Positions 3,443-63,121 of a stretch of 64,000 nt of DNA are shown piece after piece. Each line of letters begins with the position of its first letter. Position 1 is the stretch's first letter. The position numbers and the translations under genes were made by a program. Below the pieces are notes generated by a model that was given only the letters and a program-made list of their open reading frames with translations, ran no database searches and was not told the origin of the DNA. The stretch comes from Komagataeibacter intermedius TF2 (GTDB lineage: Bacteria; Pseudomonadota; Alphaproteobacteria; Acetobacterales; Acetobacteraceae), in assembly GCF_000964425.1 (NCBI RefSeq), contig NZ_BANF01000008.1:1-64000 (forward strand), in the 5' to 3' direction.

Positions 3443-3510
3443 GGTGAAGCTTTTCCAGAATGTTTCAGGCAACGCCGCCTTTTTGAAAAAGGCGGCGCCC
3501 AAAAACTTTC
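3443..3510 (+). repeat. Two-hairpin palindromic repeat, copy A
   Basis: This copy begins GGTGAAGC, has a degenerate first hairpin, and then a perfect 11-bp arm hairpin at 3474-3496 (GCCGCCTTTTT, G, AAAAAGGCGGC). It ends in CCCAAAAACTTTC. The same unit recurs at 33499, 38534, 56922 and 63036. It lies between ftsH and folP (both minus strand), beyond the ftsH stop. Seen directly; a role in termination or mRNA 3' stability is inference. Confidence 0.85.
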
Positions 3511-3622
3511 ATGTGTTCCTTATCAAGGAATTATTTAAAAACAATCCCTTATGGTTCAGATACAAACATGGCGGGATAGCCATGGGCCATCCCGCCATAT
3601 TCCTGCGTCCGGATCAGATATC

Positions 3623-5563
3623 CTAGCCTGCCGGTGCGGTACCAACGCCGCCGCCACTTTCCGGTGCGGGCAGCGGGGCAACCGGCGCGGACGGCGCCGA
3701 AGGCGGCACGGACGGACGCCGGTTTTCCGGCATCGGGTCGTCAACCACCATGCGCTCGATCTTCTCGCCCCGCAGCACCTGCCGGATTTCCTCACCCGTC
3801 AGGGTTTCATATTCCAGCAAGGCCGCGCCCAGACGGTGCAACTGATCAATATGTTCCAACAGCATGCTGCGGGCACGATCATAAGCGGCATCGATCAGCT
3901 TGCGGACCTCGTTATCGATCTCGCGCGCGGTTTCCTCGGACACGTTCTTGTTCTGCGTGACACTGTGGCCAAGGAAGACTTCCTGCCCGTTACCGCCATA
4001 CGCCACCATGCCGAGCTTTTCGCTCATACCCCATTCAGTCACCATGCGGCGGGCCACGTCGGTCGCCATCTTGATGTCACCCGACGCCCCGGTGGATACG
4101 TTATCCGGGCCAAAAATGATTTCCTCCGCCGCGCGTCCGCCCATGGCCAGCGTCAGCTTGCCGATGCACCATGACCGGCTTTCGGAATAACGGTCCTTTT
4201 CCGGCAGGCTCATCACCATACCCAGCGCACGCCCACGCGGGATGATCGTCGCCTTGTGCACCGGGTCGGAACCCGGCGTAAGAATACCGACAAGGGCATG
4301 GCCACCTTCATGGTAGGCGGTCATCTTCTTTTCGTCCTCGGTCATGACAAGGGAGCGACGCTCGGCCCCCATCATCACCTTGTCCTTGGCGTTCTCGAAT
4401 TCCAGCATGGCAACGGTACGCTTGCCAAGGCGGGCAGCCATCAGCGCCGCTTCATTGACAAGGTTCGCCAGGTCCGCACCCGAAAAACCGGGCGTGCCAC
4501 GGGCGATGACCTTGGGGTCCACATCGGACGCCAGCGGCACCTTGCGCATATGAACGCGCAGGATCTTTTCACGGCCCGCCACATCGGGGTTGGGCACCAC
4601 GACCTGACGGTCGAAGCGACCGGGACGCAGCAGGGCAGGGTCAAGCACGTCGGGACGGTTGGTCGCGGCAATCAGGATTACGCCTTCATTGCTGTCAAAC
4701 CCGTCCATTTCGACCAGCATCTGGTTCAGGGTCTGCTCACGCTCGTCATTCCCACCACCAAGGCCCGCGCCACGATGGCGACCGACCGCGTCGATTTCGT
4801 CAATGAAGATGATGCAGGGTGCGGCCTTCTTGCCCTGCTCGAACATGTCACGGACACGCGACGCACCCACACCCACGAACATTTCCACGAAGTCGGAACC
4901 GGAAATGGTGAAGAACGGCACGTTCGCCTCACCCGCGATGGCACGCGCCAGCAGCGTCTTACCCGTGCCGGGGGGGCCAACCAGCAGCACGCCCTTGGGG
5001 ATCTTGCCGCCCAGACGGGTGAACTTCTGCGGGTCGCGCAGGAAGTCCACGATTTCCTGCAGCTCACCCTTGGCTTCATCAATGCCCGCCACGTCATCAA
5101 ATGTCACGCGGCCCTGCTTTTCGGTCAGCATCCGTGCACGCGACTTGCCAAAGCCCATGGCGCGACCGCCACCGGACTGCATCTGGCGCATGATGAAGAT
5201 CCATGCCCCCACCATAAGCAGCAGCGGCGCATAGTTGATCAGGTAGCGCAGGAAGGGGTTGGTATCGCTTTCCAGCGGCTTGGCCGCGACCTCCACCCCC
5301 TTCTCCGTCAGGCGGGGAATCAGGGTCGGGTCCTGCGGCGCATACGTGTCGAACGAGGTGCCATCCGTCAGTGTGCCGGTAATGTTATGTTCCTGCACCA
5401 CGACAGACCGGACATGCCCGCTGTTCACGTCCCCGATGAAATCGGAATATGCCAGTTGCTGCGATGCGTGCTGCACGCTTCCGGGCTGGAAAACGTTAAA
5501 CAGCAGCAGCAACAGGACGATGATGATAACCCACAGGGCCAGGTTGCGGCCGAAATTGTTCAT
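3623..5563 (-). CDS. ftsH: ATP-dependent zinc metalloprotease FtsH
   Basis: Membrane-anchored AAA+ protease that degrades misfolded membrane proteins and regulatory substrates. The 646-residue protein has an N-terminal membrane helix (about 7-25), a periplasmic domain and a second helix near 105-125. The AAA module carries Walker A GPPGTGKT, Walker [10 protein letters not shown] and the SRH region. The zinc protease site HEGGH lies at about 418-422. The tail is Pro/Ala-rich. ATG at 5563 (MNNFGRN) is preferred over the frame's upstream start at 5602, because it gives the usual FtsH N terminus. tilS lies upstream and folP downstream on the same strand. An 8-5-8 inverted repeat sits in its 5' region. 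Confidence 0.96.
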
Positions 5564-5638
5564 CTTGCCTACTGTTCCATCCGCTGGCCCCTTCGCCACC
5601 ACCCCACGCGGGCAGACGAACAGACGCCACGTTCACTA

Positions 5639-5659
5639 CGTCCTATCATACATAGGACG
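5639..5659. promoter_or_regulatory. Perfect inverted repeat upstream of ftsH
   Basis: Arms CGTCCTAT and ATAGGACG are perfectly complementary and separated by CATAC. The centre is about 86 nt upstream of the ftsH ATG, in the 131-nt tilS-ftsH gap. The arm length and spacing would suit a dimeric regulator. There is no T tract to suggest a terminator. The regulator is not identified. Confidence 0.5.
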
Positions 5660-5694
5660 ATCAAGGGACATTCACACCCCCAATCCACCACCTT

Positions 5695-11415: not shown

Positions 11416-11417
11416 GA

Positions 11418-30725: not shown

Positions 30726-30799
30726 TGGAGCGGGTGAAGGGAATCGAACCCTCGTATGCAGCTTGGGAAGCTGCCGTTCTACCATTGAACTACACCCGC
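30726..30799 (-). tRNA. tRNA-Gly (anticodon CCC)
   Basis: Read on the minus strand, GCGGGTG pairs with CACCCGC to form the acceptor stem. The D arm contains AGTTCAATGGTAGAA, and the anticodon stem GCAGC/GCTGC encloses TTCCCAA, giving anticodon CCC. The T arm has GGTTCGATTCC. The discriminator is T and CCA is encoded in the DNA. It decodes GGG glycine codons. All arms fold without mismatches that would suggest a pseudogene. Confidence 0.95.
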
Positions 30800-30923
30800 G
30801 TTGTGGCCCCTCTATACTGCACAAGCCGTGCGGATGCAATCACCCCCACATTACGGGCGGCAGTTGACGCACCCTGCCCTGATCCGCAATAAGCAGTGAT
30901 GTCCGGGGACAGTTTCCACCGGA

Positions 30924-30983
30924 CCCTCGTGATTTGATACGGCCGGCTTGCGGCGAGGTAAAACATACGCGCTAAAGAGGCCT
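30924..30983 (+). ncRNA. SAM-II riboswitch in the metZ leader
   Basis: The order and spacing of conserved blocks match the SAM-II (metA) class: P1 strand CCTCG (30925-30929), GATTTG, GGCC, GGCTTGC, P1' CGAGG (30954-30958), TAAAAC, then GCTAAAGAGGCC. GGCC at 30941-30944 can pair with GGCC at 30979-30982 to form the pseudoknot helix. SAM binding would lower metZ expression. It sits about 145 nt upstream of the metZ ATG, further than is usual for a riboswitch that hides the ribosome binding site. Confidence 0.87.
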
Positions 30984-31012
30984 GATCCCGCCCGACAGGG
31001 CGCGGGCATCAT

Positions 31013-31127: not shown

Positions 31128-32330
31128 ATGACTGACCAGCCTGATCCCAAGTCCTTCCGCCCCGCCACGCGCCTGATCAACGCGGGCCTTGAGCGCACGC
31201 CATATGGCGAAACCAGTGAGGCGATGTTCCTGACCTCCGGCTTTGTCTATGACAGCGCGGAACAGGCCGAAGGCACCTTTACGGGCGATGTCTCGCACTA
31301 CCAGTATTCGCGTTTTGGCAACCCGACCACATCCAACCTCGAACGCCGCCTGTGTGACCTGGAAGGGGCGGAAGCCTGCGTCCTGACGGCGACGGGCATG
31401 GGGGCCGTGTCTTCCGCCCTGCTGGCGCAGGTGCGCGCGGGTGACCGGGTCGTGGCGTCACGCGCGCTGTTCGGGTCATGCCACTGGATCGTGGCCGAAC
31501 TGCTGCCGCGCTATGGCGTGGAAACCATATTCGTCGATGGCGGCGACATGGCGGCGTGGAAGGAAGCACTGTCGACGCCAACCCGCGCCGTGCTGCTGGA
31601 AAGCCCGTCCAACCCGATGCTGGACGTGCTGGACATCCGCATGATCTGCGATCTGGCGCACAGGGCCGGTGCGACGGTTGTGGTGGATAATGTCTTCGCC
31701 ACCCCGCTGTACCAGAAGCCGCTGGAACTGGGCGCCGACGTGGTGGTGTATTCATGCACCAAGCATATCGACGGACAGGGCCGCGTGCTGGGTGGCGCGG
31801 TGCTGGGCAACGCCAAGTGGATTGACGAAGTCCTGCGCCCGTTTACCCGCAACACCGGCAACAGCCTGTCACCCTTCAATGCATGGGTCATGCTGAAAAG
31901 CATCGAAACGCTGGGCCTGCGTGTGGACGCCATGACGCGCAATGCCGCGAAGGTAGCCGATTTCCTTGCGGATGCGCCCGGCATCGTGCGTGTGTCCTAC
32001 CCCGGCCGCAAGGACCACCCGCAGTATGAACTGGCGAAAAAGCAGATGTCCGCCGGGTCCACGCTGGTGGCGTTTGAAGTCGAGGGGGGCAAGGACGGGG
32101 CATTCGCCTTCATGAACGCGCTGCGCCTGATCTCGATTTCCAACAACCTTGGCGATGCGCGCTCGCTTGTCACGCATCCGGCCACCACCACCCACATGAA
32201 GCTGGCGCCCGAAGAACGCGCCCGCCTTGGCATTACCGACGGGGCGATCCGCTTTTCCGTCGGGCTGGAAGATGCCGACGACCTGATTGACGACCTCAAG
32301 CGCGGCATTGCGGCGCTGGGCAACCGGTAA
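31128..32330 (+). CDS. metZ: O-succinylhomoserine sulfhydrylase
   Basis: PLP enzyme that makes homocysteine from O-succinylhomoserine and sulfide, the direct sulfhydrylation route to methionine. The 400-residue protein has YQYSRFGNPTTSNLERRL, TATGMGAVSSALLAQV, the ESPSNPMLDVLD cofactor region and YSCTKHIDGQGRVLGGAVLG with the PLP lysine at about 212. The C terminus carries SLVTHPATTTHMKL and IRFSVGLEDADDLIDDL. A SAM-II riboswitch lies in its leader, which supports methionine control. apaG and folE follow on the same strand. Confidence 0.93.
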   Translation: MTDQPDPKSFRPATRLINAGLERTPYGETSEAMFLTSGFVYDSAEQAEGTFTGDVSHYQYSRFGNPTTSNLERRLCDLEGAEACVLTATGMGAVSSALLAQVRAGDRVVASRALFGSCHWIVAELLPRYGVETIFVDGGDMAAWKEALSTPTRAVLLESPSNPMLDVLDIRMICDLAHRAGATVVVDNVFATPLYQKPLELGADVVVYSCTKHIDGQGRVLGGAVLGNAKWIDEVLRPFTRNTGNSLSPFNAWVMLKSIETLGLRVDAMTRNAAKVADFLADAPGIVRVSYPGRKDHPQYELAKKQMSAGSTLVAFEVEGGKDGAFAFMNALRLISISNNLGDARSLVTHPATTTHMKLAPEERARLGITDGAIRFSVGLEDADDLIDDLKRGIAALGNR

Positions 32331-32861: not shown

Positions 32862-33488
32862 ATGCAACAAGAACCAACAGCAATGACCCCCATCGATTCC
32901 CATCCCACCCGCCAGGAAGCAGAGGAGGCCGTCCGTACCCTGCTGCGCTGGGCGGGCGAAGATCCCGACCGTGAGGGGCTGCGTGACACGCCCCAGCGCG
33001 TCATCAAGTCATATGACGAATTTTTCTGCGGCTACGCCGAAGACCCGGTCGACCTGCTGCGCCGCACCTTTTCCGAAGTCGATGATTATGACGAAATGGT
33101 GCTGCTGCGCGATATCCGCGTGGAAAGCCATTGCGAACACCACATGGTGCCCATCATTGGCGTGGCCCACGTGGCCTACCTGCCGCGCAAACGGGTGGTG
33201 GGCATTTCCAAGCTGGCCCGCGTGGTGGATGCCTATGCCCGACGTTTCCAGATCCAGGAACGCCTGACGGCCCAGATCGCCAATACCATCAACGAAGAAC
33301 TGCAGCCCTATGGCGTGGCGGTGGTGATCGAGGCATCGCACCAGTGCATGACCACGCGCGGCGTGCACCGTCCCGGCGTATCAATGGTGACCAGCCGCAT
33401 GCTGGGCACCTTCCGCACCAATTCGGACACGCGGCGCGAATTCCTGTCGATCCTCAACCGCCCGGCCATGAACAGCAGCGGTATCTGA
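32862..33488 (+). CDS. folE: GTP cyclohydrolase I
   Basis: Converts GTP to dihydroneopterin triphosphate for folate. The 208-residue form shows [41 protein letters not shown] (zinc Cys and the catalytic His pair), [24 protein letters not shown], and [19 protein letters not shown] with the third zinc ligand region. Possible starts are GTG 32826, ATG 32862 and ATG 32883. None has a strong ribosome binding site, so the exact N terminus is uncertain. A repeat element follows. Confidence 0.93.
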
Positions 33489-33498
33489 GGGTATAAAT

Positions 33499-33569
33499 GC
33501 CGCCTTTTTTTGAAAAAGGCGGCATTTCCCTGAAGCTTTTTGCAAAAAGCCTCACCAGAAAACGTCTTT
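33499..33569 (-). repeat. Two-hairpin palindromic repeat, copy B
   Basis: The reverse orientation of copy A. The first hairpin is GCCGCC-T7-GAAAAAGGCGGC (33499-33523). The second is GAAGCTTTTT, GC, AAAAAGCCTC (33532-33552), followed by ACCAGAAAACGTC. It lies in the 96-nt convergent gap between folE and the DJ-1 gene, and the GC stem plus T-rich arm could serve as a terminator for either. Confidence 0.85.
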
Positions 33570-33584
33570 ACTGATCGCGCGACG

Positions 33585-34160
33585 TTACAGACTGACTTTT
33601 GCCCCCAGCACGGCAATGAACTGCGCCAGCCATGCCGGGTGGGCGGGCCATGCCGGCGCCGTGACCAGCCTGCCATCCGTCACGGCTGCATCGAGCGCAA
33701 TATCAGCATATATGCCACCGGCCAGTTCCACATCAGGGCGGCAGGCGGGATAGGCTGAAACCGTCCGCCCCGAAATGATGCGTGCAGCCGCCAGAAGCTG
33801 GCCCGCATGGCAGATCGCGGCGATGGGCCGGTCAGCAAAGGCACGGACCAGTTCGATGACCCGCGCATCCAGCCGCAGGTATTCCGGCGCGCGCCCACCG
33901 GGCAGGACAAGGCCCGCGTAATCCGCGTGACTGATTTCGTCGAAGGTCGCGTTCAGCACGAAACGGTGGCCCGGCTTTTCGCTGTAGGTCTGCGCACCTT
34001 CAAAATCATGGATTGCCGTCAGGACATGCTCGCCTGCCTTACGGCCGGGGCAGACCGCATCAACGCGATAGCCCAGCATGGCCAGCGCCTGGCAGGGCAC
34101 CATGACCTCGTAATCCTCGACATAGTCACCAGCCAGCAGCAGAAGCCTTGGTGCACTCAT
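33585..34160 (-). CDS. DJ-1/PfpI-family protein
   Basis: Class I glutamine-amidotransferase-like protein of the DJ-1/PfpI superfamily, whose members include glyoxalase III-like deglycases, proteases and stress proteins. The 191-residue form from ATG 34160 shows [33 protein letters not shown] at the N terminus with the conserved acidic residue. The nucleophile elbow is [13 protein letters not shown] (Cys). [13 protein letters not shown] and a late NPEY-like NAWPAH stretch follow. A specific substrate cannot be given. It is 27 nt downstream of moaB on the same strand. Confidence 0.85.
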
Positions 34161-35001: not shown

Positions 35002-36480
35002 ATGAAATATGTTATCGATGCGCGAATGATCAGAACATTCTCCCGATTTTTTATACCGCTATCCCTGCTTCTTCTTGCGCTTTTCACCCTGAGTGAAACC
35101 GCATCGGCACAGGCCATTCCCGGAGAAGGTCAGGGCGTCATAGGTGCGCAGCCCAGTCTGAACGTCAATTCACGACGCAATGTTCCCGTGAACGATCCTG
35201 GGTCATTTTTCAGCGCACCATACGGAAACCAGCATTTTTTCGGGGACTGGGCCGGGCTTCAGCCCTTCCTGCTGAAACATGGCGTCCATATTGAAGCCGA
35301 CGTGCATGAGGAACTGGCAGGCAACTTCCGCGGGGGCGCCAAGCAGGGCGTAACCGATGCCGGGCAGGTCGGCGTGGAGGTCGATATCGACTGGCACAAG
35401 CTGGCGGGCGCACCGAAGAATTTCTGGACACATACCATGATCGTGAACGGTCATGGCCGTAACGACAGCACGGATTACATTCACGATTCCCTTGCCGGCG
35501 TGCAGCAGATCTATGGCGCGCGTGGTAACGTGGTCGCCCATCTGGTCTACATGTATGCCGAACAGTCACTGTTCCATAACCGGCTGGATATCAGCGCGGG
35601 CTGGATTCCCGTTGGCAGCTTCTTTGCCGCATCCCCGCTGTTCTGTGACTTCATGAACGTGTCGATCTGCGGTAACCCCGCGCCGGGCAAATACGTGCCG
35701 GGTGGCCGTGACTGGCCGTCGGGCAACCTTGGCGTGGTCATGCGCGTCATGCCCACGGTCGATACCTACATCATGGCCAGCATGTTCGCCGTATCGCCGC
35801 ATTCCTATAACGGCGGCATTTCGGGATGGTCATGGGCACAGAGCGGCCTGGGCAAGTTCTCGACCCCGGTGGAATTCGGCTGGCTGCCGGAATTCGGCCG
35901 CCATCACCTCGCCGGTCATTACAAGGCGGGTTATGGCTACGACAATTCGCAGTACAGCGACCTGTATCAGGACATCAACGGCAACTCCGCCGTTCTGACA
36001 GGACAGCCGTTCCGCAAGCAGTCCGGTGTCAGCACCGCGTGGTTCCAGGCCGACCAGATGTTCATCCGCAATGGCGCGGGCCCGACCAACGGCCTGATCG
36101 CGCTGGCGGGCTTCATGTACACATCGGGCAAGGTCTCGGCGATGAAATACCATGCCTGGGCCGGCATGGTGGAAACGGGTGCGGCATGGGGGCATCCGCT
36201 CGATACCGTTGGCGCCATGTTCCATTATTTCGAGATGAGCCGCGCATCCGTCCTGCAGCAGGAATCCTCGGTTCTGGCGGGCACGCCGTTCCTGTCCAAC
36301 CAGTGGGGCAAGGCATGGGGCATCCAGACGCATGAGGATGTGTACGAAGTCTTCTACAACATCCACACCGCACGCGGCATGAGCTTCCAGCCCGATTTCC
36401 AGTATATCAACCGCCCCGGTGGCACCACCACCTACCACGATGCGGCGGTGATGGGCCTGCAGTTCAACTGCATCCTGTAA
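35002..36480 (+). CDS. OprB-family carbohydrate porin
   Basis: Outer-membrane beta-barrel porin of the carbohydrate-selective OprB family; in acetic acid bacteria such porins admit glucose and other sugars. The 492-residue protein has a signal peptide (about 1-35, cleavage near ASAQA). Alternating aromatic strands follow, with typical OprB stretches HFFGDWAGLQPFLLKHGVHIEADVHEE, GVEVDIDWHKL, ISAGWIPVGSFFA and the C-terminal DFQYINRPGGTTTYHDAAVMGLQFNCIL. The ATG at 35002 is well placed for the signal. An AT-rich promoter region precedes it, and it appears monocistronic. Confidence 0.9.
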   Translation: MKYVIDARMIRTFSRFFIPLSLLLLALFTLSETASAQAIPGEGQGVIGAQPSLNVNSRRNVPVNDPGSFFSAPYGNQHFFGDWAGLQPFLLKHGVHIEADVHEELAGNFRGGAKQGVTDAGQVGVEVDIDWHKLAGAPKNFWTHTMIVNGHGRNDSTDYIHDSLAGVQQIYGARGNVVAHLVYMYAEQSLFHNRLDISAGWIPVGSFFAASPLFCDFMNVSICGNPAPGKYVPGGRDWPSGNLGVVMRVMPTVDTYIMASMFAVSPHSYNGGISGWSWAQSGLGKFSTPVEFGWLPEFGRHHLAGHYKAGYGYDNSQYSDLYQDINGNSAVLTGQPFRKQSGVSTAWFQADQMFIRNGAGPTNGLIALAGFMYTSGKVSAMKYHAWAGMVETGAAWGHPLDTVGAMFHYFEMSRASVLQQESSVLAGTPFLSNQWGKAWGIQTHEDVYEVFYNIHTARGMSFQPDFQYINRPGGTTTYHDAAVMGLQFNCIL

Positions 36481-36525
36481 CATCCCCTTCATCAACGGGC
36501 GTCCACACGGTATGGGAGGCGGATC

Positions 36526-37509
36526 ATGACCGATCCCTCCTTCCTTTACCAACAGGCCCATGCGGCGCTGTCTGGCTATCCCCTGCGGGATGCCCGGCCA
36601 ACGCTGGTATCCATTTCAGAAAACGTTATTTTCCGTGTCGATACGGCCGGGGGCCCACGCTATGCGCTGCGCCTGCACCGGCCCGGCTATCATACAGCAC
36701 CGGAGATCCGCAGCGAACTGGCGTGGCTTGACGCCCTGCATGCGTCGGGGGTGGACGTTCCCCTGCCCGTTCCCGGTCATGATGGCCAGTGCCTGCGCAC
36801 GCTGCCGGGCAATGATGGCGTGACCCGCCATGCCGTCATGTTTGTCTGGATGGACGGCTGCGAACCCACCCCGGACATTGATCCTGCCGCCTTTGCCCGA
36901 CTGGGCCGCATCACCGCCCGCCTGCATGACCACAGCCGCGGCTGGACACGCCCGGACGGGTTTGTCCGCAAGGCATGGGTGCCCGACACCATGACCGGCC
37001 CCCATGCCCTGTGGGGGCAATGGGACAGGGTGCCCGGCACGACCGGGGCCGCCCGTGACCTGATCGCGCACTGCCTGCGGCAGGTTGATGCACAACTGGC
37101 GGATTATGGCACCTCCCCCCATCGATTCGGGCTGATCCATGCCGACCTGCGGCTGGCCAACCTGCTGGTCAGCGGCACGCATACGCGCGTAATCGATTTT
37201 GATGACTGCGGCATAAGCTGGTTCATGCAGGATCTTGCAGCCGCCCTGAGCTTCCATGAAGACCACCCGCATGTGCCCCGCTGGGTTGACCACTGGCTGC
37301 GGGGCTATGCCACGACCGGCACCATCACGCAGGCCGACCTCGACATCCTGCCCGCCCTTGTCATCCAGCGCCGCATCCAGCTTCTGGCATGGACCGGCAC
37401 GCATCATGACACGCAGCAGGTCCGCAGTCTTGGTCCCGACTGGTCCGATCGCACGCTGGGATTGTGCCAGGCGTGGATGCAGGGCCGTCTACTGCGTCAT
37501 ATCGGCTGA
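36526..37509 (+). CDS. APH-family phosphotransferase (SrkA/homoserine kinase-like)
   Basis: Protein of the aminoglycoside phosphotransferase / choline kinase fold. The 327-residue protein has an N-terminal lobe (LVSISENVIFRVDTAGGPRYALRLHRPGYH). The catalytic loop is FGLIHADLRLANLLV and the Mg-binding motif is VIDFDDCGISWFMQDLAAAL. This makes it a probable kinase. The DCGxSW motif and DLxAAL helix resemble SrkA/YihE and related kinases more than antibiotic-modifying enzymes. The substrate is unknown. It begins 45 nt downstream of the porin on the same strand and may be co-transcribed with it. Confidence 0.82.
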   Translation: MTDPSFLYQQAHAALSGYPLRDARPTLVSISENVIFRVDTAGGPRYALRLHRPGYHTAPEIRSELAWLDALHASGVDVPLPVPGHDGQCLRTLPGNDGVTRHAVMFVWMDGCEPTPDIDPAAFARLGRITARLHDHSRGWTRPDGFVRKAWVPDTMTGPHALWGQWDRVPGTTGAARDLIAHCLRQVDAQLADYGTSPHRFGLIHADLRLANLLVSGTHTRVIDFDDCGISWFMQDLAAALSFHEDHPHVPRWVDHWLRGYATTGTITQADLDILPALVIQRRIQLLAWTGTHHDTQQVRSLGPDWSDRTLGLCQAWMQGRLLRHIG

Positions 37510-37788
37510 TCGCCACCGGTACGGGACCGCATAATTAGATATTTTTTTAATTCATCTTTGTGATGAAACCGCCCACATTACTTTTCAGAAAGTTTTCGAG
37601 GCGAAAACCGCATGATGCGAGGGTTGCATGAGATCAAATAAATGTGACCTTAAGAATCAGATTTCCGGCGCACTATGTCTTTTATGCCTCATTCCTGACA
37701 TGTATGAACGTTAGGTAATGTGTCGTTCGGTTAACAACCCGATTCACCGGAGCCCGTCCCGTCCTTGGCACATAACGGAAAAACAGCA
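37510..37788. other. AT-rich leader region before a small protein gene
   Basis: A 279-nt gap with lower G+C than its surroundings. It contains T-rich and A-rich tracts and no recognisable riboswitch or tRNA. No ORF of family character was found. It probably holds the promoter and leader of the 61-residue gene downstream. Confidence 0.45.
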
Positions 37789-37974
37789 ATGACCCCTGCA
37801 GTTGACACGATCGCCTCGTCCCCGGCAGCTTCCTCCGTCGTCGCCGTTGGCCTGCCCGTAACGCCCGAGGAAATCCCGACCCGGTCCCAGACCACGCGGA
37901 TGATCTATTCCCGCCACCGTCGTGCCCTGCGTGATTATGCCCGCACGCTCAATACCCCGACCGAAAACGCCTGA
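37789..37974 (+). CDS. Small hypothetical protein, 61 residues
   Basis: Not recognised. ATG at 37789 gives MTPAVDTIASSPAASSVVAV, then a basic C-terminal half with TTRMIYSRHRRALRDYARTL that looks helical and nucleic-acid or membrane-surface friendly. There is no signal peptide or membrane helix. An upstream in-frame TTG at 37765 would add eight residues. It is an orphan with a long AT-rich leader, between two unrelated genes. Codon use fits the surrounding genome. Whether it is expressed is uncertain. Confidence 0.5.
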   Translation: MTPAVDTIASSPAASSVVAVGLPVTPEEIPTRSQTTRMIYSRHRRALRDYARTLNTPTENA

Positions 37975-38031
37975 TCACCCGCACCGTGGGGTCAGTTGAC
38001 CGCAGGTCCATCATCCGGGCCACGATAAAAA

Positions 38032-38475
38032 TCAAACTTTGACATTATTTTCCTGTGACCGTTCAGATCGCATCCGCAGGGCAGCCAATGCATGACGGGT
38101 CGGTTCGGTCAGATCCGCAGGCAGGCCGTCGAGGGCATACCAGCATGGTCCCTCATGCTTGTCCGGTTCCATAAGGGTCGGCATACCCTGCCATGACGTG
38201 ACCAGATACACCGGCGAAAGCCAGTGATACCCGGCCCTGGCATCCATCTGCTCCACAAGGCACAGCAGATCACGGGCCTGTATGATGATGCCCAGTTCTT
38301 CCCTGATTTCACGCTCGGCTGCATGGGCAGTGGTCTCGTATGGGTCCACCTTGCCACCCGGCAGGCCCCAGCATCCGGCCTCCGGCTGCTTCAGGCGCCG
38401 CAACAGCAGGATACGGCCACCCCCGTCCATAATCGCCGCGCCACATCCCACGCGTGGGCTGGTTATCGCCGTCAT
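38032..38475 (-). CDS. NUDIX hydrolase
   Basis: Small pyrophosphohydrolase acting on a nucleoside diphosphate linked to another moiety. The 147-residue protein has a complete Nudix box, GKVDPYETTAHAAEREIREELGI, matching GX5EX7REUXEEXGU, near residues 41-63. LLLRRLKQPEAGCWGLPGG precedes it. The short length and MutT-like layout are compatible with nucleotide-pool cleaning, but the substrate cannot be inferred. It is downstream of pdc in the minus direction, separated from it by a repeat. Confidence 0.9.
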   Translation of the reverse strand: MTAITSPRVGCGAAIMDGGGRILLLRRLKQPEAGCWGLPGGKVDPYETTAHAAEREIREELGIIIQARDLLCLVEQMDARAGYHWLSPVYLVTSWQGMPTLMEPDKHEGPCWYALDGLPADLTEPTRHALAALRMRSERSQENNVKV

Positions 38476-38533
38476 CGTCCGACCTCTTTTCCGTTCAAGA
38501 CCCCGTTAGGACACAGCCCGCTGGTAAAAAATA

Positions 38534-38611
38534 AAAGTTTCCGGGAGCTGCCTTTTCCCGGAAAGGCGACGTTTTCCGACGCTTCTTGAAAAACGCTTCA
38601 CCAAAAACATC
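38534..38611 (-). repeat. Two-hairpin palindromic repeat, copy C
   Basis: The most diverged copy. It contains AAAGTTTCCGGGAGCTGCC, hairpin GCTGCCTTTTCCCGGAAAGGCGAC (38547-38570) and then a second hairpin, GACGCTTCTTGAAAAACGCTTC (38568-38589 approximately), followed by ACCAAAAACATC. It lies beyond the pdc stop and before the NUDIX gene, both minus strand. The orientation matches copies B and D. Confidence 0.75.
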
Positions 38612-38728
38612 CTGCTGATCTGCGGACTGTAAAAAACAGTCCCCGGAAAATACGTCCCCATACGACAAGGGGATGCCCGAAGGCACCCCCAATCCTTTTG
38701 CAGTACGGAATTATCCCGCCATTCGCGA

Positions 38729-40423
38729 TCAGCGCGCGGCCGGCGGCCGGGCATTGGCGGTTGCAACGCGACGCCCCCATGAAATCAGGTCGCTGGTGCA
38801 ATCATCACGATCAATCACGCATTCGATCAGCGTCGGACCTTCCGTGTTCGCGACCGCCGCGGCAATGGCCTTTTCCATCTCGGCGCCAGTCGTGGCGCGG
38901 AAGCCCTTGCCGTGGCCATCTTCCGCGTTGAACACGTTCATCAGGCCCGCATAATCCCAATTCTTGATGTTGTTGTAAGGACCATCATGAATCTGGACTT
39001 CGATGGTGTAACCCCGGTTGTTGACCAGGAAGATAATCACCGGCAGCTTCAGCCGCACCATCTGGGCGACTTCCTGCGCCGTCAGCTGGAAGGAGCCATC
39101 GCCGATCATGGCGATGATCCGGCGTTCCGGTGCCGCCACGGCGTAACCGAAGGTGGCGGGAACGGACCAGCCGATATGACCCCACTGCATTTCCAGTTCC
39201 ACGCGTGCGCCACGCGGCAGTTTCATCTGTATGGCGTTGAACCAGGAATCCCCGGTCTCGGCGATGACAGATGTATCGGATGTCAGCAGGCCCTGAATCT
39301 GACGGGCCATTTCAGCACGCACCAGCGGGGCATTCGGCTCTGCTGCGGCCACCGGGGCCTCGGGGGTTTTGATACGGCGGTATTCAACCAGCGTCGCATC
39401 CTTCTTCGGCTGCCCCTTCAGCCGGTCGATCAGGCCCTCGATCACGTCACGCAGGTGCACGCCATCAAATGCCCTGCCACCAGCTGCGATATGCCGCGCA
39501 TCCATCAGCGCCACGTTGTCGCCCCTGGGCCATGCGGTCCAGCCAACGGTCGAATAATCGTTGAACACCGGGGTCAGGCACAGCACGCCATCCGCCCAGT
39601 CAAATATCTGCTGCGCACCGGGGCTGCTGACATCGCCCCAGTAGGTCCCGGCATAGGCGGGATGATCCTCGGGGAAGAAGCTCTTGGCGGCGGCCATGGA
39701 GGTCACGGCGCAGCCCAGCGCGTCAGCCAGGCGAATGGCGGCATCCTCGCAGCCTGCGGCACGCAGGCGGCTGCCCACCAGCATGATCGGCTTCCTGCGC
39801 GCGGCAATGAAGCTGGCCAGTTCGTCAATCGCCAGCTTCAGCGTTTCCGGGTCGGACGGCGCATCGGCCATAATCGCGCCAACCGGACCGGGACGCGGGC
39901 ATGGCATCGGGGCCACGTTACACGCGATTTCAATATAGGCCGGCTTCTTTTCACGCAGCGCGGTGCGGATGGCATGGTCGATCAGCACCGGCGCGTCCTC
40001 GGCCGAGGTGATCGACACCGCCGCACAGGTCAGGCGTCTGGCGATTTCAAGCTGATAGGAATAATCCGGCGTGCCAATGGTATGGTGCAGGATATGCCCG
40101 CTGCCATGATCGTTGGAGTTGGGCGCGCCTGAAATCAGGATGACCGGCAGGTTTTCGGCATATGCGCCGCCAATGGCGTTCAGCGCGGACAGCGCGCCCA
40201 CGCTGAAGGTGACGACAGCAGCCCCGGCGCCGTTCGCGCGGGCGTAGCCTTCGGCACTGAAACCACAGTTCAGTTCATTACAGCAGTAGACCTGCCGCAG
40301 GCCGTCGATTTCAAGAAGCTGGTCAAGCAGGACGAGATTGTAGTCGCCCGCAACCGCGAAATGATCTTTCAGCCCGATCTGCGCCAGGCGTTCACCAAGG
40401 TAATGGCCAACTGTATACGTCAT
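38729..40423 (-). CDS. pdc: Pyruvate decarboxylase
   Basis: Thiamine-diphosphate enzyme that turns pyruvate into acetaldehyde and CO2, rare in bacteria but present in Zymomonas and acetic acid bacteria. The 564-residue protein starts [34 protein letters not shown]. It has the catalytic Glu in [17 protein letters not shown], the His pair of HHTIG, and the ThDP/Mg motif [16 protein letters not shown] ending NNRGYTIEV. The ATG at 40423 follows GGAAGGAAAG. It is last in the minus-strand order budA-alsS-dld-pdc, and gives acetaldehyde for conversion to acetate. Confidence 0.96.
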
Positions 40424-49670: not shown

Positions 49671-50564
49671 TTGCGCAAGATCGCCCTTTTCGTTTCCCTG
49701 GCCTGCCTTGCCGCCTGTGCCCATGGTCCTGACAACCATACCCGGCGGGCGACCACGCCGGTTGCGCAATACGCCACCGGGGCCGGACCGCTGGCGGTCA
49801 GCGCCCATGTGCCTGACTTCGCCACCCGCAATTACGAACCCTTTACCCGGCAGGACGTGGTGGCCATCGCCCTGCGCGAATGGCGGCTGTTCGGGGAACC
49901 GGTCAGTGATGACGATCCCCTGCTGCGCCCCGAACCAACCACGCCCGTGGTCAAGCCCGAGCGCACGCCCGGGCTGTGGCAGCGCGTGGGCGAATACTGG
50001 TGGATTGGCCAGGACCCGCAGGAAACCGAGATCGCATGGGACGGCAAGCATGATGCGGACGGCCATATAACCGATTTCGTTCATGATGGCCGCTTTGCCT
50101 GGTCTGCGGCGTTCATTTCGTATGTCATGCGGGTGGCGGGGGCGAATGACCGCTTTGCCTATTCCCCCAACCACGCCACCTACATCAACGCTGCGGCATC
50201 GGGACAGGAAAAGGGCGTGAAGGCGCGCAACCCCGCCCGTTACGCGCCAAAACCGGGGGACCTGATCTGCGTGGGGCGCGGCGCCAGCAAGTCGGTGCGC
50301 TTCCGCGACCTGCCCACGCCACAGGGCTTTCCCGCCCATTGCGGCATCGTGGTGGCAGGCCCCCATGACGATGCGCCCTTCGGCCATGAAATCAGCATTA
50401 TCGGCGGCAACATAGATGACGCGGTCGCGCTGACCCATGTCCCGGTGGGACAGGACGGGCGGCTGTTCGACCACAGGGGCCGAAGCCTTGACCCCCGCTA
50501 TCCCTGGTGTGCCGTGCTGCAGGTCCGCTATGACGCCGATAGCGAGCCACAGACGGACCAGTAA
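49671..50564 (+). CDS. DUF2272-like lipoprotein, TTG start
   Basis: Periplasmic lipoprotein of DUF2272 type, a family with a cysteine-peptidase or amidase-like fold whose activity is not established. From TTG 49671 the 297-residue protein reads as a lipoprotein signal RKIALFVSLACLAAC, with a GGAG 8 nt before the TTG. In-frame GTG 49662 is an alternative. Key parts are FTRQDVVAIALREWRLFGEP, GRFAWSAAFISYVMRVAGAND, PNHATYINAA, PGDLICVGRGA and FPAHCGIVVAG. The His of AHCG could be catalytic. The start call is based on the ribosome binding site and lipobox. Confidence 0.78.
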   Translation: MRKIALFVSLACLAACAHGPDNHTRRATTPVAQYATGAGPLAVSAHVPDFATRNYEPFTRQDVVAIALREWRLFGEPVSDDDPLLRPEPTTPVVKPERTPGLWQRVGEYWWIGQDPQETEIAWDGKHDADGHITDFVHDGRFAWSAAFISYVMRVAGANDRFAYSPNHATYINAAASGQEKGVKARNPARYAPKPGDLICVGRGASKSVRFRDLPTPQGFPAHCGIVVAGPHDDAPFGHEISIIGGNIDDAVALTHVPVGQDGRLFDHRGRSLDPRYPWCAVLQVRYDADSEPQTDQ

Positions 50565-50618
50565 CCACCCCGCCCGACAGGACCACGCCCACCGGGCCGG
50601 GCAGTGCCTGCCGGATGA

Positions 50619-51029
50619 TCAGCCACGCGACCACGGCAGTTCGGATGCCTGCCAGCCCGCAACGCAGCCGCGACGGCCGGTTGCGTCTTCCGGCCCTTCG
50701 AACCCGTCAGCCACGTTATGCACGTTGTGGTACCCCGCATCATACGCCGCATGGGCTGCGGCCATGCTGCGCGCGCCGGAACGGCAGATGAAATAGACCT
50801 CATCCGTTTTACCGATCCCCGCCTTTTCCAGCGTGGTGACGAAATCCGGGTTGACCTGCCCCGCAGGCGGCAGCTGCCAGCTGTCACGCACCAGCGTCCG
50901 GCCCGCGCCCGACAGATCGGGCACGCCGATATGCTCCCATTCCATGGGGGTACGCACGTCAACCAGCCAGGCGTTGGGGCGGCTGCGCACGGCCTCCCAT
51001 GCGGCGGTGGGGGAAATATCGTCGATCAT
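50619..51029 (-). CDS. Rhodanese-like domain protein
   Basis: Single-domain rhodanese that may move sulfane sulfur. The 136-residue protein has WLVDVRTPMEWEHIGVPDL and the active-site loop ICRSGARSMAAA (Cys about 83), with an Ala/Tyr-rich following helix and GFEGPEDATG. No signal peptide is present, so it is cytoplasmic. It is divergent from cysK over a 149-nt gap, so it may belong to local sulfur metabolism, though this is inference. Confidence 0.88.
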   Translation of the reverse strand: MIDDISPTAAWEAVRSRPNAWLVDVRTPMEWEHIGVPDLSGAGRTLVRDSWQLPPAGQVNPDFVTTLEKAGIGKTDEVYFICRSGARSMAAAHAAYDAGYHNVHNVADGFEGPEDATGRRGCVAGWQASELPWSRG

Positions 51030-55917: not shown

Positions 55918-56904
55918 ATGCCGCAGCAGGTTGCCGTCATTACCGGAGCGGGCGCAGGTATCGGCCGCGCCACAGCACGCACGCTGGGCCGCGCGGGGTG
56001 CGATGTCGCCCTGCTGGGCCGTAACCGCGACCGGCTGAATGATGCGGCGGCCGAACTGCGCGAACTGAACGTGCGCACCCATATCGTCTGCGTTGACGTG
56101 GCCGATGCCAAGGCCGTCGATCAGGCGGCCGAGGAAATCGAGGAAACCCTTGGCGCCATCACCCTGTGGATCAACTGCGCGGGCGCCAGCGTGACCGGGC
56201 AGGTCGCCGCCCTTGACCCCGATGAAATCCGGCGCGCGACCGAAGTGACCTATCTTGGCACCGTCAACGGCACCCGCTCCGCGCTGGCGCGCATGCGCAG
56301 GCGCGGACATGGCACCATTGTCAACCTCGACCGTCTGGCCAGCCTGCGTCCGCCGCCGCTGCAGGCCGTGGAAAACGGCGCCCGCGCCGCCGTGCGCGCC
56401 TTTTCCGAAAGCATCCGTCCGGAAATCCTGCATGATGGGGACCGGATCAATATCGTGCTGGTGCACCTGCCCTCCATCAACACGCCGCGCTTTTCATGGA
56501 CACGCAACCATACCGGCAAGCGCCTGAAGCCGATGGGCCCGGTTTACGAACCCGAAATCGCCGCCGAAGCGATATGCCGCGCCGCCTTCGGGCGTGAACG
56601 TGACATATGGGTTGGTCTGTCTGGCGTGCGCAACTGGGCGCTGGCCACCTTCCTGCCTGGCCTGTCGGACCGCTGGCTGTCGGGCAAGGGCTATGCGAAG
56701 CAGATGGAAAAGACGCCGGTTGCGGGCAACGAACCCGATGACCTGTATGACACCGTGCCGGGGGCCTATGCCGCCCATGGCCGCTTTGACATGATCACCC
56801 GCAAGAGCATGCCCCTGCTGCTGACCAGCCGCCATGCACAGCTGGCCACCGTCACGGGGCTTATGGGCATCATAATGCTGGCCCTGCGCCGCAGGCGGGA
56901 CTAG
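55918..56904 (+). CDS. Short-chain dehydrogenase-like pseudoenzyme
   Basis: SDR-fold protein of 328 residues. It keeps the cofactor motif TGAGAGIGRA (10-19) and NCAG (86-89). The catalytic tetrad of SDRs is not conserved. By alignment to the usual pattern, Asn becomes Thr111, Ser becomes Arg139, Tyr becomes Glu152 and Lys becomes Arg156. The later region (LPSINTPRFSW, MGPVYEPEIAAEAICRAAFGRERDIWVG, GAYAAHGRFDM) follows a common family of active SDRs. It probably binds NAD(P) or a ligand without normal dehydrogenation. The C terminus has a hydrophobic tail (TGLMGIIMLALRRRRD), possibly membrane-anchored. A repeat follows. Confidence 0.85.
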   Translation: MPQQVAVITGAGAGIGRATARTLGRAGCDVALLGRNRDRLNDAAAELRELNVRTHIVCVDVADAKAVDQAAEEIEETLGAITLWINCAGASVTGQVAALDPDEIRRATEVTYLGTVNGTRSALARMRRRGHGTIVNLDRLASLRPPPLQAVENGARAAVRAFSESIRPEILHDGDRINIVLVHLPSINTPRFSWTRNHTGKRLKPMGPVYEPEIAAEAICRAAFGRERDIWVGLSGVRNWALATFLPGLSDRWLSGKGYAKQMEKTPVAGNEPDDLYDTVPGAYAAHGRFDMITRKSMPLLLTSRHAQLATVTGLMGIIMLALRRRRD

Positions 56905-56921
56905 GCGCGCATCCCGCCACG

Positions 56922-56987
56922 GGCGCCTCTTTTTCAAAAAGGCGGCGTTCCCCGAAGCGTTCTGGAAACAGGCTTCACCAGAAGCGC
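56922..56987 (-). repeat. Two-hairpin palindromic repeat, copy D
   Basis: It begins GCGCCTCTTTTTCAAAAAGGCGGC (first hairpin), then GTTCCCC, then the second hairpin GAAGCGTTCTGGAAACAGGCTTC followed by ACCAGAAGCG. Its orientation is like copies B and C. It lies in the convergent gap between the SDR gene and ispE. The GTTC/GAAC bases of the second stem differ from other copies yet still pair. Confidence 0.8.
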
Positions 56988-57042
56988 CTTCCCGAGCCAT
57001 GGCATGTTTCACGGGCTGCCATCTGCGACAGCCCGTGCCCTG

Positions 57043-57969
57043 TCAGGCGGATAGCGAATCGGCCCGGGCGTCCAGCCGCGTGCCCGCGCGGCACAGATCG
57101 CCTGCCCAGACCCACCATTTCCCCTGACGCACCGCAGGTTCAGCCGCCCGTGCCGCCTCCGGGCTGTCAAACAGGGCGAAGCAGGTGGCGCCAGACCCGC
57201 TCATCCGCGCAAGGCGGCAGCCGGGTGCGGCGCGCAGGGTATCGAGCACGGTCGTGATCTCGGGACAGATGGCGCAGGCCGCATCCTGCAGGTCATTGGT
57301 CTGTGCCGACAGGTCACGCACCATGTCCGCCAACGTATTCCACCGCGCAGGCAGGTCCGCACGTGGCGTAAAGCCCGGTGCACGCGTGCGGAACACCTGT
57401 GGGGTGGATACGCTCTGCCCGCAGTTGACCAGCATCATCCCACACGGCGGCAGGCCGGGGGCGGGGGTCAGTTCCTCCCCGATTCCTTCCATCCGGGCTG
57501 GCAGCTGGTCCAGGCATACCGGCACGTCCGCGCCCAGACGGGTCGCCAGCATCATGAGGTCGGCACGGTCGATGGACAGGTCCCATGCCTTCAGCAGCAG
57601 GCGCAACGCGGCCGCAGCATCCGCCGATCCACCTCCGATCCCCGACGCCACGGGCAGTTCCTTGCGCAGCACGATCTCCACATCAGGCAGGCGGGCGGCG
57701 ACATCCGTCCCCACATGCGCGCACAGCAGCGCGCCCGCGCGTACGATCAGGTTATCGGCGCTGTCATCCAGCAGGCCGGGAGCGAATGTCCCCTCGATCC
57801 GCAGGCGAACATGGCCGCCGCGTCCGCTCCCGCAGTCCAGCCGCAAGTCGTCCGCCGCCCCCGCGAACACCGCAAGGCTGTCCAGCAGGTGATAGCCATC
57901 ATCACGCCGTCCCGTGACATGCAGGTACAGGTTGATCTTTGCATGAGCCAGTTCACGTAGTGGGGACAT
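57043..57969 (-). CDS. ispE: 4-diphosphocytidyl-2-C-methyl-D-erythritol kinase
   Basis: GHMP-fold kinase of the MEP isoprenoid pathway. The 308-residue protein has HAKINLYLHVTGRRDDGYHLLDSL, the ATP motif ELPVASGIGGGSADAAAALR (Ser/Gly loop) and RLGADVPVCL. The C-terminal RMSGSGATCFALFDS is typical. It is translationally coupled to the upstream TPR gene by a TGATG overlap. The end lies in a convergent region with a repeat element. Confidence 0.93.
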   Translation of the reverse strand: MSPLRELAHAKINLYLHVTGRRDDGYHLLDSLAVFAGAADDLRLDCGSGRGGHVRLRIEGTFAPGLLDDSADNLIVRAGALLCAHVGTDVAARLPDVEIVLRKELPVASGIGGGSADAAAALRLLLKAWDLSIDRADLMMLATRLGADVPVCLDQLPARMEGIGEELTPAPGLPPCGMMLVNCGQSVSTPQVFRTRAPGFTPRADLPARWNTLADMVRDLSAQTNDLQDAACAICPEITTVLDTLRAAPGCRLARMSGSGATCFALFDSPEAARAAEPAVRQGKWWVWAGDLCRAGTRLDARADSLSA

Positions 57970-60948: not shown

Positions 60949-62925
60949 ATGCGAGGGACACTCAATACCCCCCATCACGCGGTGGCAGCCTTTCTGGCTG
61001 GCGCCGCATTTCTGGCAGGAGCGGCGTTCGCGCCGCTGCGTGCCCAAACAGTGGATGCCGGAAGGCCGGATCAGGATCCGGCCAGCCACGGTGACCATAA
61101 CGAGGAAACGGCACTCGCCCTTCCGCGCCTGCCCACGCAGGGTAGCGCCGGGCTGCCGCGTCCCCTCTCGCCCGATGACGTCAGCCGTATCCGCCGGGTG
61201 TTCCGGCTGCAGGCAGATGGCAAGTTCGACGCCGCGATCCATGAAACGGCCGCGATCCATGACGATACCCTGCTGGGGGACATCCTGGCCGCGCGGTATC
61301 TCAACCCCGCCTACCATGCCAGTCCCGGGCAGCTGAGGCTGTGGCTGAGGACGTTTTCGGGGCTTGCGGATTCGCCCGCGATCTATTCCCTGCTGTCCTC
61401 CATGCCCAACAGGGGTGGCCCACTGCCGCCCGCGCCAGCCCATAACGCGCTGGACAGCAGCCATCCCCCGCAGCATATCCGCCTGCCGGAGGAGGATGAC
61501 CCCTCGCTCCGCGTGTTTACCCGCAACAGCCTGCTGGACCACACGGTGCGCGAACGCGCCGCGCAGGGGGTAAAGGGGGCACGCAGCGCCCTGCACCTGA
61601 TCGCGGTGACGCCGGGCATGAATGACCTGTATGCAGCCCATCTTCAGGCGGAAATCGCCATGACCATGTTCAGCAGCGGTGAAAACCGGCTGGCCATGTC
61701 AATCGCGCGCGATGCCTTTGCCAGATCCGGCCAGCAGCTGGGCCTTGCGGGTTATGTGGCCGGGCTGGCCGCATGGCGGCTGGGACGGCCCGACATGGCC
61801 GAACCCCTGTTCGAAGCCGCATCACGCGCCAGCCTGACACCGGGCGGCATCCGCGCCGGTGCCGCCTACTGGGCCGCACGCGCCCATCAGGCGACGGGTG
61901 ATGTGGCAGCCTACCATCCCTGGCTGCACCGCGCGGCCGCGGCCCCACATACGTTCTACGGCCTTCTGGCCTCACAGATCCTTGGCCTGCGCACTCCGGC
62001 CTCCAGATCCGCCCATCCGTCCAATACCATCGGCCCGAACGCCGCCATGACGCTGGCAGCCGAACAGCAGACCATTCACGCGGGCAGCCGTGTGCTGGGT
62101 GAAATCGATATCGAGGCCGTGGCCGCCACACCGGCGGGACGCCGGGCCTTCGCCCTGTTGCAGGTGGGTGAGCGTGACCGGGCGGAAGCCACCCTGCGCC
62201 GCATGTGGCCCGACATCCAGAACGACGCAGCACTGTGCCATTCCACCCAGATGGTGGCCGACGCCATGAACATGAAGGACCTGTCGGCCCAGATGCTCAT
62301 GCTGATCGACACGAACGAGAGCGAGCACAGCACCCACGCATCCCGCTTCCCCCTGCCGCCGCTGCAACCTGAACATGGGTTCCGCATGGACCCGGCACTG
62401 GTCTATGCACTGACGCGGCTGGAATCCAATTTCGACAGCAATGCGGTATCAGGCTCCGGTGCGCATGGCCTCATGCAGGTCATGCCGGTCACGGCCGGTT
62501 TCGTCATGCATGACAAGGACCGCTTCACCCGCCGCCCCGCGGACCTGCATGATCCTGCGACCAACCTCGATATCGGACAGCGTTATGTGCTGTACCTGGC
62601 CCAGCTTTCCACACAGGCTGGTGGCCGGCATGTGCCGCCAGGCGGCGACATGATCCGCATGCTGGCCAGCTACAATGCCGGGCCGTCCGCCATTTCGCGC
62701 CGCAGCGCCACCATGGACGAAGGCGAGGACCCGCTGCTGTATATCGAAAGCCTGCCCAATACCGAAACACGTGATTATGTCCGCCGGGCGTTCACCTATC
62801 TGTGGATCTATGCCGACAGGCTGGGGATCGCAGCGCCGTCGCTGGAAACAATGGCCCGCAATGAATGGCCCGGTTTTGGCGCGGAAACGGCCATGGCGGG
62901 ACATACCGGCCACACCATCCATTAA
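60949..62925 (+). CDS. Soluble lytic murein transglycosylase (SLT domain)
   Basis: Periplasmic lytic transglycosylase cutting peptidoglycan glycan strands. From ATG 60949 the 658-residue protein has a signal peptide (AAFLAGAAFLAGAAF, cleavage near LRAQTV). A large helical superhelix-like domain follows, with repeated Ala/Leu motifs. The C-terminal SLT domain carries ALTRLESNFDSNAVSGSGAHGLMQVMPVTAGFV (catalytic Glu492) and NLDIGQRYVLYLAQL plus MLASYNAGPSAISR. The start is uncertain: an in-frame TTG at 60910 is possible. A strong terminator follows. Confidence 0.92.
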   Translation: MRGTLNTPHHAVAAFLAGAAFLAGAAFAPLRAQTVDAGRPDQDPASHGDHNEETALALPRLPTQGSAGLPRPLSPDDVSRIRRVFRLQADGKFDAAIHETAAIHDDTLLGDILAARYLNPAYHASPGQLRLWLRTFSGLADSPAIYSLLSSMPNRGGPLPPAPAHNALDSSHPPQHIRLPEEDDPSLRVFTRNSLLDHTVRERAAQGVKGARSALHLIAVTPGMNDLYAAHLQAEIAMTMFSSGENRLAMSIARDAFARSGQQLGLAGYVAGLAAWRLGRPDMAEPLFEAASRASLTPGGIRAGAAYWAARAHQATGDVAAYHPWLHRAAAAPHTFYGLLASQILGLRTPASRSAHPSNTIGPNAAMTLAAEQQTIHAGSRVLGEIDIEAVAATPAGRRAFALLQVGERDRAEATLRRMWPDIQNDAALCHSTQMVADAMNMKDLSAQMLMLIDTNESEHSTHASRFPLPPLQPEHGFRMDPALVYALTRLESNFDSNAVSGSGAHGLMQVMPVTAGFVMHDKDRFTRRPADLHDPATNLDIGQRYVLYLAQLSTQAGGRHVPPGGDMIRMLASYNAGPSAISRRSATMDEGEDPLLYIESLPNTETRDYVRRAFTYLWIYADRLGIAAPSLETMARNEWPGFGAETAMAGHTGHTIH

Positions 62926-62943
62926 CGGATCCTGCATATCCGT

Positions 62944-62983
62944 AAAAAAAGGGCGTCCCATTGTCGAGGGACGCCCTTTTTTT
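62944..62983. terminator. Bidirectional intrinsic terminator
   Basis: AAAAAAA-GGGCGTCCC-ATTGTCGA-GGGACGCCC-TTTTTTT gives a 9-bp GC stem with A/T tracts on both sides. It begins 18 nt after the lytic transglycosylase stop and would also serve the convergent minus-strand gene. It is the strongest terminator of the window. Confidence 0.92.
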
Positions 62984-63035
62984 ATGACAGATCGCCTGCA
63001 ATGCCCTGCCTGTGGAGCGTCCCGAACATTGAAGA

Positions 63036-63121
63036 GACGTTTCTGATGAAGCGTGTTCCAGAAAACTTCAGGAAACGCCGCCTTATTGAAAATAAGGCAG
63101 CACCCGGAAATTTCTCCTGTT
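63036..63121 (+). repeat. Two-hairpin palindromic repeat, copy E
   Basis: It begins GACGTTTCTGATGAAGCG. The second hairpin at 63077-63101, GCCGCCTTATT-GAA-AATAAGGCAGC, differs from the CCTTTTT form of other copies in both arms, so base pairing is kept (compensatory change). CCCGGAAATTT follows. Its orientation is like copy A. It is between a terminator and the CBS-protein gene, both convergent ends. Confidence 0.85.

Follow-up and report, generated by a model that had tools for sequence, protein, structure and literature searches.

Five copies of a palindromic repeat (A to E) are scattered over the window, the 64,000-nucleotide stretch of the Komagataeibacter intermedius TF2 genome that was analysed here, and each lies beyond the 3' end of a gene. 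What these repeats are, and how they came to lie behind genes, is the question that the locus raises. A sequence-only reading had taken them for a structure under selection, such as a REP/BIME-like element or a terminator, possibly spread by a transposase encoded elsewhere.

The palindromic core and its abundance

All five copies were found where they had been reported, with both hairpins common to all, and covariance-model matches gave the same mixed orientation (A and E plus; B, C and D minus). The gene context was also as described: B, D and E lie in convergent gaps, A in a codirectional gap at ftsH, C in another at the TPP-dependent decarboxylase gene, previously called pdc, and none in a divergent gap (Table 1). 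Copy A is separated from the ftsH stop by 109 nt, which include the ordinary terminator of ftsH, and from the start of the next gene by 52 nt. The copies span more than had been described, as an 85-nt unit comprises the two hairpins and a previously missed outer stem. The outer stem, with arms resembling AAGTTTTTGG and CCAAAAACTT, carries hairpin 1, of the GAAGC type, and hairpin 2, of the GCCGCC type, so that the intact unit is a three-way junction. An Rfam scan of the window matched only a tRNA and a SAM_alpha riboswitch, and the five copies matched no Rfam family at the gathering score, which ruled out a known RNA family as their identity.

Table 1. Features of the window, with positions counted from its first nucleotide
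Feature	Position	Strand	Context	Remarks
Copy A, 85-nt core	3431..3513	+	codirectional gap, antisense to both neighbours: folP-like 2335-3378 (-), ftsH 3623-5602 (-)	right outer arm recognisable, p 0.003; left p 0.043
ftsH terminator	3567..3584	-	outside the element	ordinary intrinsic terminator; scan and by eye
tRNA	30729-30799	-	adjoins SAM_alpha riboswitch	Rfam covariance-model match
SAM_alpha riboswitch	30916-30996	+	precedes gene 31128-32330	Rfam covariance-model match
Copy B, core	33482..33568	-	convergent gap: folE (+) / PfpI-type gene (-)	left outer arm recognisable, p 0.010; right not, p 0.99
Empty site	36481..36525		behind gene 35002-36480	holds a whole unit in G015
Copy C, core	38530..38614	-	3' of TPP-dependent decarboxylase gene 38729-40423 (-), ahead of NUDIX gene 38032-38475 (-)	both outer arms recognisable: left p 0.007, right p 0.003
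Copy D, core	56910..56991	-	convergent gap: SDR gene (+) / ispE (-)	left outer arm recognisable, p 0.003; right not, p 0.98
Terminator near copy E	62966..62978	+	copy E gap, outside the element	ordinary terminator; scan
Copy E, core	63033..63118	+	convergent gap: lytic transglycosylase gene (+) / CNNM-CorC-type gene (-)	outer arms nearly gone: left p 0.70, right p 0.027

A covariance model was built from 13 copies. The genome-wide search that the sequence-only reading had proposed as a check yielded many further copies: in the own genome (G000, 3.88 Mb) there were at least 145 matches at E<=1 and at least 123 at E<0.001, both lower bounds, as 150 of 1460 first-look candidates were scored. The window copies scored between E 4.8e-24 and 5.6e-13, copy D being the weakest, and these values are not independent because the model was built partly on window copies. 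All 19 same-genus (Komagataeibacter) genomes matched at E<=1e-6, with 24 to at least 113 matches per genome and at least 113 in 12 of the 19. Among 21 genomes from outside the genus, the same threshold was reached by one of 5 from the family and none of 16 from the class, and a broader draw from the family gave matches at E<=1e-5 in 22 of 200 genomes, belonging to 12 of 102 genera, two of them strongly matched. Relatives of the core occurred in 11 further family genera (g37, g50, g84 and g89 among them); the matches in g89 were as strong as those in the own genus, and those in the other genera were weaker. The exact consensus pattern returned 71 stretches from a species collection of 84,980, the sources being Komagataeibacter, Novacetimonas, 'Gluconacetobacter' entanii and Acetobacter musti.

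A mobile unit with inverted ends

We compared the window block across 17 syntenic genomes. The slice between genes 35002-36480 and 36526-37509 measured 88 bases in 15 of the 17, 133 in G017, where it lies at an alignment edge, and 252 in G015. The G015 insert exceeds the core, beginning directly behind the TAA stop of the 35002-36480 orthologue and ending in ...TTTTCAAACAGTCTC, and it defines a unit of ~161 bp with TIRs of ~15 bp, GAGACTGTTTGAAAA...TTTTCAAACAGTCTC, of which the 85-nt unit is the core. It is flanked by TAA on one side and CAA on the other, indicating that the duplication there is imperfect. In the gap 37509-38729, a unit lies directly 3' of a TGA stop in G015 (left junction readable), a worn unit is present in G003, and the unit is absent in G004, G006, G008 and G018. 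The unit is too short for a transposase gene, and its copies are dispersed.

The TIR GAGACTGTTTGAAAA, with at most one mismatch, was found in all six genomes chosen, and the reversed-pattern control gave 0; paired TIRs lay ~160 bp apart. TIR counts at this stringency were 64 in G015, 22 in G003, 7 in G018, 6 in G000, 4 in G004 and 3 in G002, two of the last being the ends of an IS5-type transposon. With 64 matches in G015 against 3 to 22 in the five relatives, the unit possibly multiplied in a recent burst within a single lineage.

From the collected loci, 74 ends were assigned to 57 candidate units, with up to two mismatches allowed, so that chance matches are possible. TNA preceded 52 of the 74 ends (TAA 27, TTA 12, TCA 9, TGA 4), or 51 of 73 without L366, which is the IS5-type transposon's own end. 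Identical 3-bp flanks were present in 8 of the 17 two-ended units, and TTA borders a unit in G018:C2 at either end. We counted against the MITE reading the 22 of 74 ends that do not follow TNA and the 9 of 17 two-ended units with unequal flanks, the clean G015 insertion included. Thirteen of the 57 units lie directly behind a stop codon (10 TAA, 2 TGA, 1 TAG; expected 8.5%, p 8e-4), and 12 of 57 do so when TAA and TGA stops only are considered (p 0.003); these p-values treat units as independent, ignoring relatedness, under a null that takes triplet weights from the observed flanks and excludes DNA near known copies. Outer arms were detectable beside 47 of 97 own-genome copies, compared with 4 of 97 for a reversed reference, and in the window they were detectable at A, B, C and D and marginal at E.

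A candidate mover was found in G002, where a 3.6-kb unit (L389, G002:C2:66800-70900) is bounded on each side by GTGACTGTTTGAAAAGT, shows a TTA duplication and contains an open IS5-family transposase frame. The protein matched NF033580 at 225 bits (cut-off 110), as well as PF13340 and PF01609, and its counterpart in G013 is 95% identical. L410, a 2.7-kb relative of L389 in G013, has a TGA duplication, and the TIRs around the transposases of L389 and L410 differ from those of the MITE by one base in 17. A second IS5-type element, which has GAGCCCGATCCGAAAGT ends and is flanked by TAA, interrupts a passenger frame of L389 that is FkbM-like (named by eye). An IS5-type transposase of G015, 64% identical, lies upstream of a GAGACTGTTTCAAAAGT end that is followed by TTA; no clear left end was seen in the G015:C62 element examined, and only the right end is clear in element L411. 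L390, where a GAGCCTG end adjoins an IS5-family gene that scores under the NCBIfam cut-off, had no right end and was dropped. At E<=1e-60 the transposase was present in 5 of 19 genomes, with matching TIRs on both sides in two and a right end in one. The own genome had no such transposase at this threshold, which would fit the worn copies there. A search for autonomous elements in the loci collected gave only core pairs and chance matches.

The IS5-family group of IS1031, from Acetobacter xylinum and relatives, has TNA targets. The unit resembles this group in its 3-bp TNA duplication, and GTGACTGTTTGAAAAGT ends close to its own enclose the IS5-family transposase of G002 and the 95% identical one of G013; it differs in having no gene, a length of ~161 bp and a three-way-junction core. 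The clean insertion, the TIRs, the 3-bp, mostly TNA duplication and the near-identical IS5-family ends together identify the unit as a MITE. Judging from these ends, an IS5-family transposase is the most likely mover of the non-autonomous MITE, and the spread by a transposase encoded elsewhere that the sequence-only reading had raised is likewise the most likely route. Counted against this assignment was that the link consists of ~17 shared end bases; no internal similarity was seen between the MITE and the IS5-family elements.

Seven plasmid records matched the unit (6 Komagataeibacter, 1 Novacetimonas; 3 conjugative), and zero matches were found in the phage records searched. In two of the plasmid matches coverage of the unit reached 80% or more, and nearly whole units are present on two conjugative plasmids. 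The PLSDB gene table, which is incomplete, lists no feature at six of the seven best plasmid places. On the conjugative plasmid p1 of N. hansenii, 15 bases separate a 99.4% copy (L414, 1501-1662) from the end of an IS630-family transposase gene. Movement by another family, such as IS630/mariner with its TA target, could draw on this neighbouring gene and on the TA contained in TAA and TTA, but it is very improbable: identical flanks include TCA and TTG in units and TGA in L410, none of which contains TA, and the genes found between matching TIRs are of the IS5 family. This origin was accordingly disfavoured by the 3-bp flanks.

Intergenic dispersed palindromes of high copy number and mixed orientation would also be expected of REP/BIME elements spread by a RAYT (Y1 HUH) transposase. 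The search for such a transposase, which the sequence-only reading had suggested, detected no Y1_Tnp (PF01797) in any of the 19 same-genus genomes, whereas the control was positive in 5 of 14, and REP/RAYT identity was rejected on this result. Since the element also has TIRs, a 3-bp duplication, a length of ~161 bp and a core of 85 nt, we regard REP/BIME elements in the RAYT sense as extremely improbable.

Copies at the same site differ in orientation between genomes. In the gap 33488-33585, the core of G003 and G008 is oriented opposite to that of G015 and G018, in blocks that are 93-96% identical, and one-hairpin forms are present in G004 and G006. The motif GCTTTGAAAA is common to the four full copies; beyond them it occurred in one further block copy of the 91 (again in G015), in 1 of 119 named loci and in 0 of 99 own-genome rows. 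One flank matches across the four genomes, and the other differs between the orientation groups. With the shared motif and half-matching flanks, the different orientations are most simply read as a flip in place, and the core seems to have flipped in this way between close relatives; replacement by a second copy may also account for them. Orientation differs as well in the gap 50564-50619, between G006 and its relatives, and in the gap 56904-57043, between G010 and G011 plus G012, and one-hairpin fusions also occur in G009. From the different orientations and one-hairpin forms observed at one site, the core seems able to turn round between its outer arms and to shed a hairpin, the flip and its route being presumed. 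Two genes are possibly broken in relatives: at G007:C256 ~27181 only 36 of the 150 residues of the decarboxylase query find a close match, and at G012:C316 33749-34328 the PfpI-type gene matches in two frames.

Placement behind genes and a possible role of the core

Genes were called with our own Markov caller, and the own-genome context was taken from the window and from the surroundings of 88 of the 145 listed matches. Left out of the counts were matches overlapped by a better match on the opposite strand, two duplicates on the overlapping stretches L130/L131, and copy L9. Among the 97 own-genome copies, 58 were convergent, 29 codirectional and 3 divergent, 4 overlapped a called gene and 3 lay at a contig edge. 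These counts shift by a few between caller settings, nine of which gave 56-60 convergent, 25-30 codirectional, 4-6 divergent, 2-4 genic and 3-4 edge copies, and because the caller missed the NUDIX gene beside copy C, that copy was classed as convergent in 8 of the 9, and in the count of 58 as well. The sequence-only reading had named few copies, or copies mostly in coding or divergent regions, as an outcome that would speak against it, and with 58 of 97 convergent this did not occur. Named loci, a biased set fetched by the exact consensus pattern (best 150 of 242 aligned, 119 after overlap removal), comprised 64 convergent, 33 codirectional, 9 divergent and 13 edge copies, and the 91 non-independent copies of the 17 syntenic blocks comprised 46, 45 and 0 convergent, codirectional and divergent copies. 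The expectation from allowed TNA sites was 21% convergent, 58% codirectional and 21% divergent. Codirectional copies were mostly antisense (21 of 29 own-genome copies; 43 of 62 once named loci are added, p 0.003), and they lay farther from the downstream start (median 177 nt own genome, 118 named) than from the upstream stop (42 and 16 nt). The 57 candidate units with a recognisable end included 31 convergent, 19 codirectional, 0 divergent and 7 edge units. The convergent share is alike in units with ends (31 of 50) and own-genome copies (58 of 90), giving no sign of enrichment with age.

Both TAA and TGA fit the TNA target, so a stop codon can itself receive an insertion and is preserved by the duplication. 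Insertions that hit genes or promoter regions would presumably be weeded out, so that the remaining copies lie behind genes and mainly in convergent gaps, and with age the outer arms fade while the three-way-junction core stays recognisable. We consider it very probable that the five window copies are worn cores of a ~161-bp MITE, most likely moved by an IS5-family transposase, that is left behind genes.

The convergent excess over the allowed TNA sites would also be expected if the core were a (bidirectional) transcription terminator under selection, with mobility secondary. By eye, the gaps 33488-33585 and 50564-50619 hold the element where other clades have GC-rich hairpins, and so do G004, G006 and G018 at 62925-63145. 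However, none of the five window copies fits the intrinsic-terminator pattern (GC-rich hairpin, then U-tract), in a scan that is weak because its hits were not clearly above shuffles (1 vs 5.2, 4 vs 3.0, 1 vs 0.8). The scan flagged ordinary terminators of ftsH and near copy E instead. The ftsH terminator was recognised by eye in the syntenic gap of 19 same-genus genomes, with or without the element, which lies between stop and terminator in K. xylinus-like genomes and behind the terminator in G000. Seven further syntenic genomes likewise show the terminator at 62966-62978, and of the nine genomes that bear the element at 62925-63145, five retain an ordinary one (by eye).

Core identity exceeded flank identity in 11 of 13 site groups by pooled identity and in 10 of 11 by mean pairwise difference, for which Ba and Bb were omitted as having too little flank. 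Among the 10 positive margins, however, three do not exceed 0.02, one group is negative, and the pooled identity in the gap 50564-50619 is reversed (core 0.70 vs flank 0.80). The core is therefore conserved only modestly more than its flanks. The equal convergent share of units with ends and own-genome copies also speaks against selection for termination. With no window copy fitting the terminator pattern in the weak scan, there is little behind the earlier terminator proposal, and we regard it as an unlikely explanation.

A structured RNA in 3' UTRs, such as a stability element or an RNase site, would be in line with the antisense bias of codirectional copies and with several features of the fold. 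An intact copy (L058:2256-2340) folds strongly, with z -6.7 and -6.9 on its two strands. Among the window copies, RNAfold gave both hairpins in B only, hairpin 2 or a close variant in A, D and E, and another fold in C. Both-side changes were found in 9 of 33 pairs in 13 copies, a number reached by 0 of 500 shuffles, and slid controls gave 3 to 6; six of the nine lie in the outer stem, three in hairpin 2 and none in hairpin 1. The compensatory change TTATT/AATAA reported for copy E is real in the sequence. G-U exceeded A-C overall in three sets of 97, 117 and 90 unique copies (291 vs 182, 153 vs 80 and 176 vs 122). This excess is mostly in the outer stem (178 vs 67 in the own genome), where it may stem from subfamily founders, whereas hairpin 2 is reversed in the own genome (39 vs 74) and in named loci (16 vs 25) and about even in the blocks. 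Because the helices disagree, the overall excess was not counted as support. Hairpin 1 is missing from some copies, such as those of G011 and G005 at site A, and orientation varies between genomes at the same gap, both of which speak against a 3' UTR RNA. We therefore consider this role improbable. Selection on the structure, as proposed by the sequence-only reading, is only weakly indicated, since the paired changes stand and the modest margin of core over flank and the discordant helices weaken it.

A third proposal joins mobility to function. Landing in TAA or TGA with the stop kept, the MITE would bring a near-symmetric core that could serve as transcript end or 3' UTR from either strand, replacing ordinary terminators behind many genes across the genus. 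As such a core would be usable from either strand, its flipping would be tolerated. We think such a mobile 3' end unlikely. With strand pairing inconsistent and the core only modestly conserved, the MITE appears to be placed by target choice and weeding, later use of the core being optional and a structural role possible.

Relation to known repeats and significance

The RIME of rhizobia are palindromic intergenic repeats in Alphaproteobacteria, likened here by description, not sequence. The CIR repeats of Caulobacter (PMC2229807) are likewise palindromic, intergenic and from Alphaproteobacteria, again a likeness of description and not of sequence. RUP, Correia/NEMIS and ERIC (PMC2229807) and MITEAba12 (PMC6382973) are bacterial MITEs. 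The unit shares with all four that it is a short, gene-free mobile repeat with many intergenic copies, and differs in that its insertions lie partly exactly at stop codons and that its core probably flips. REP, which measure 20-40 bp and are associated with RAYT (PMC3733652, PMC12306157), are also palindromic, intergenic and of high copy number, whereas the unit measures 85 or 161, has TIRs and a duplication, and had no RAYT found. Titles and the starts of abstracts, with full text limited to open-licence PMC, gave no description of the repeat. This suggests that the family is an apparently undescribed MITE of Komagataeibacter, as no such element for the genus was found in the literature searched.

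These findings advise caution, as palindromes at gene ends should not be called terminators or REPs from their shape alone. The copies vary between close species and are therefore potential strain markers. The family is a very abundant transposon family in bacteria of cellulose, vinegar and kombucha, and it shows how the target triplet of a transposase can permit insertion at stop codons without breaking the gene.
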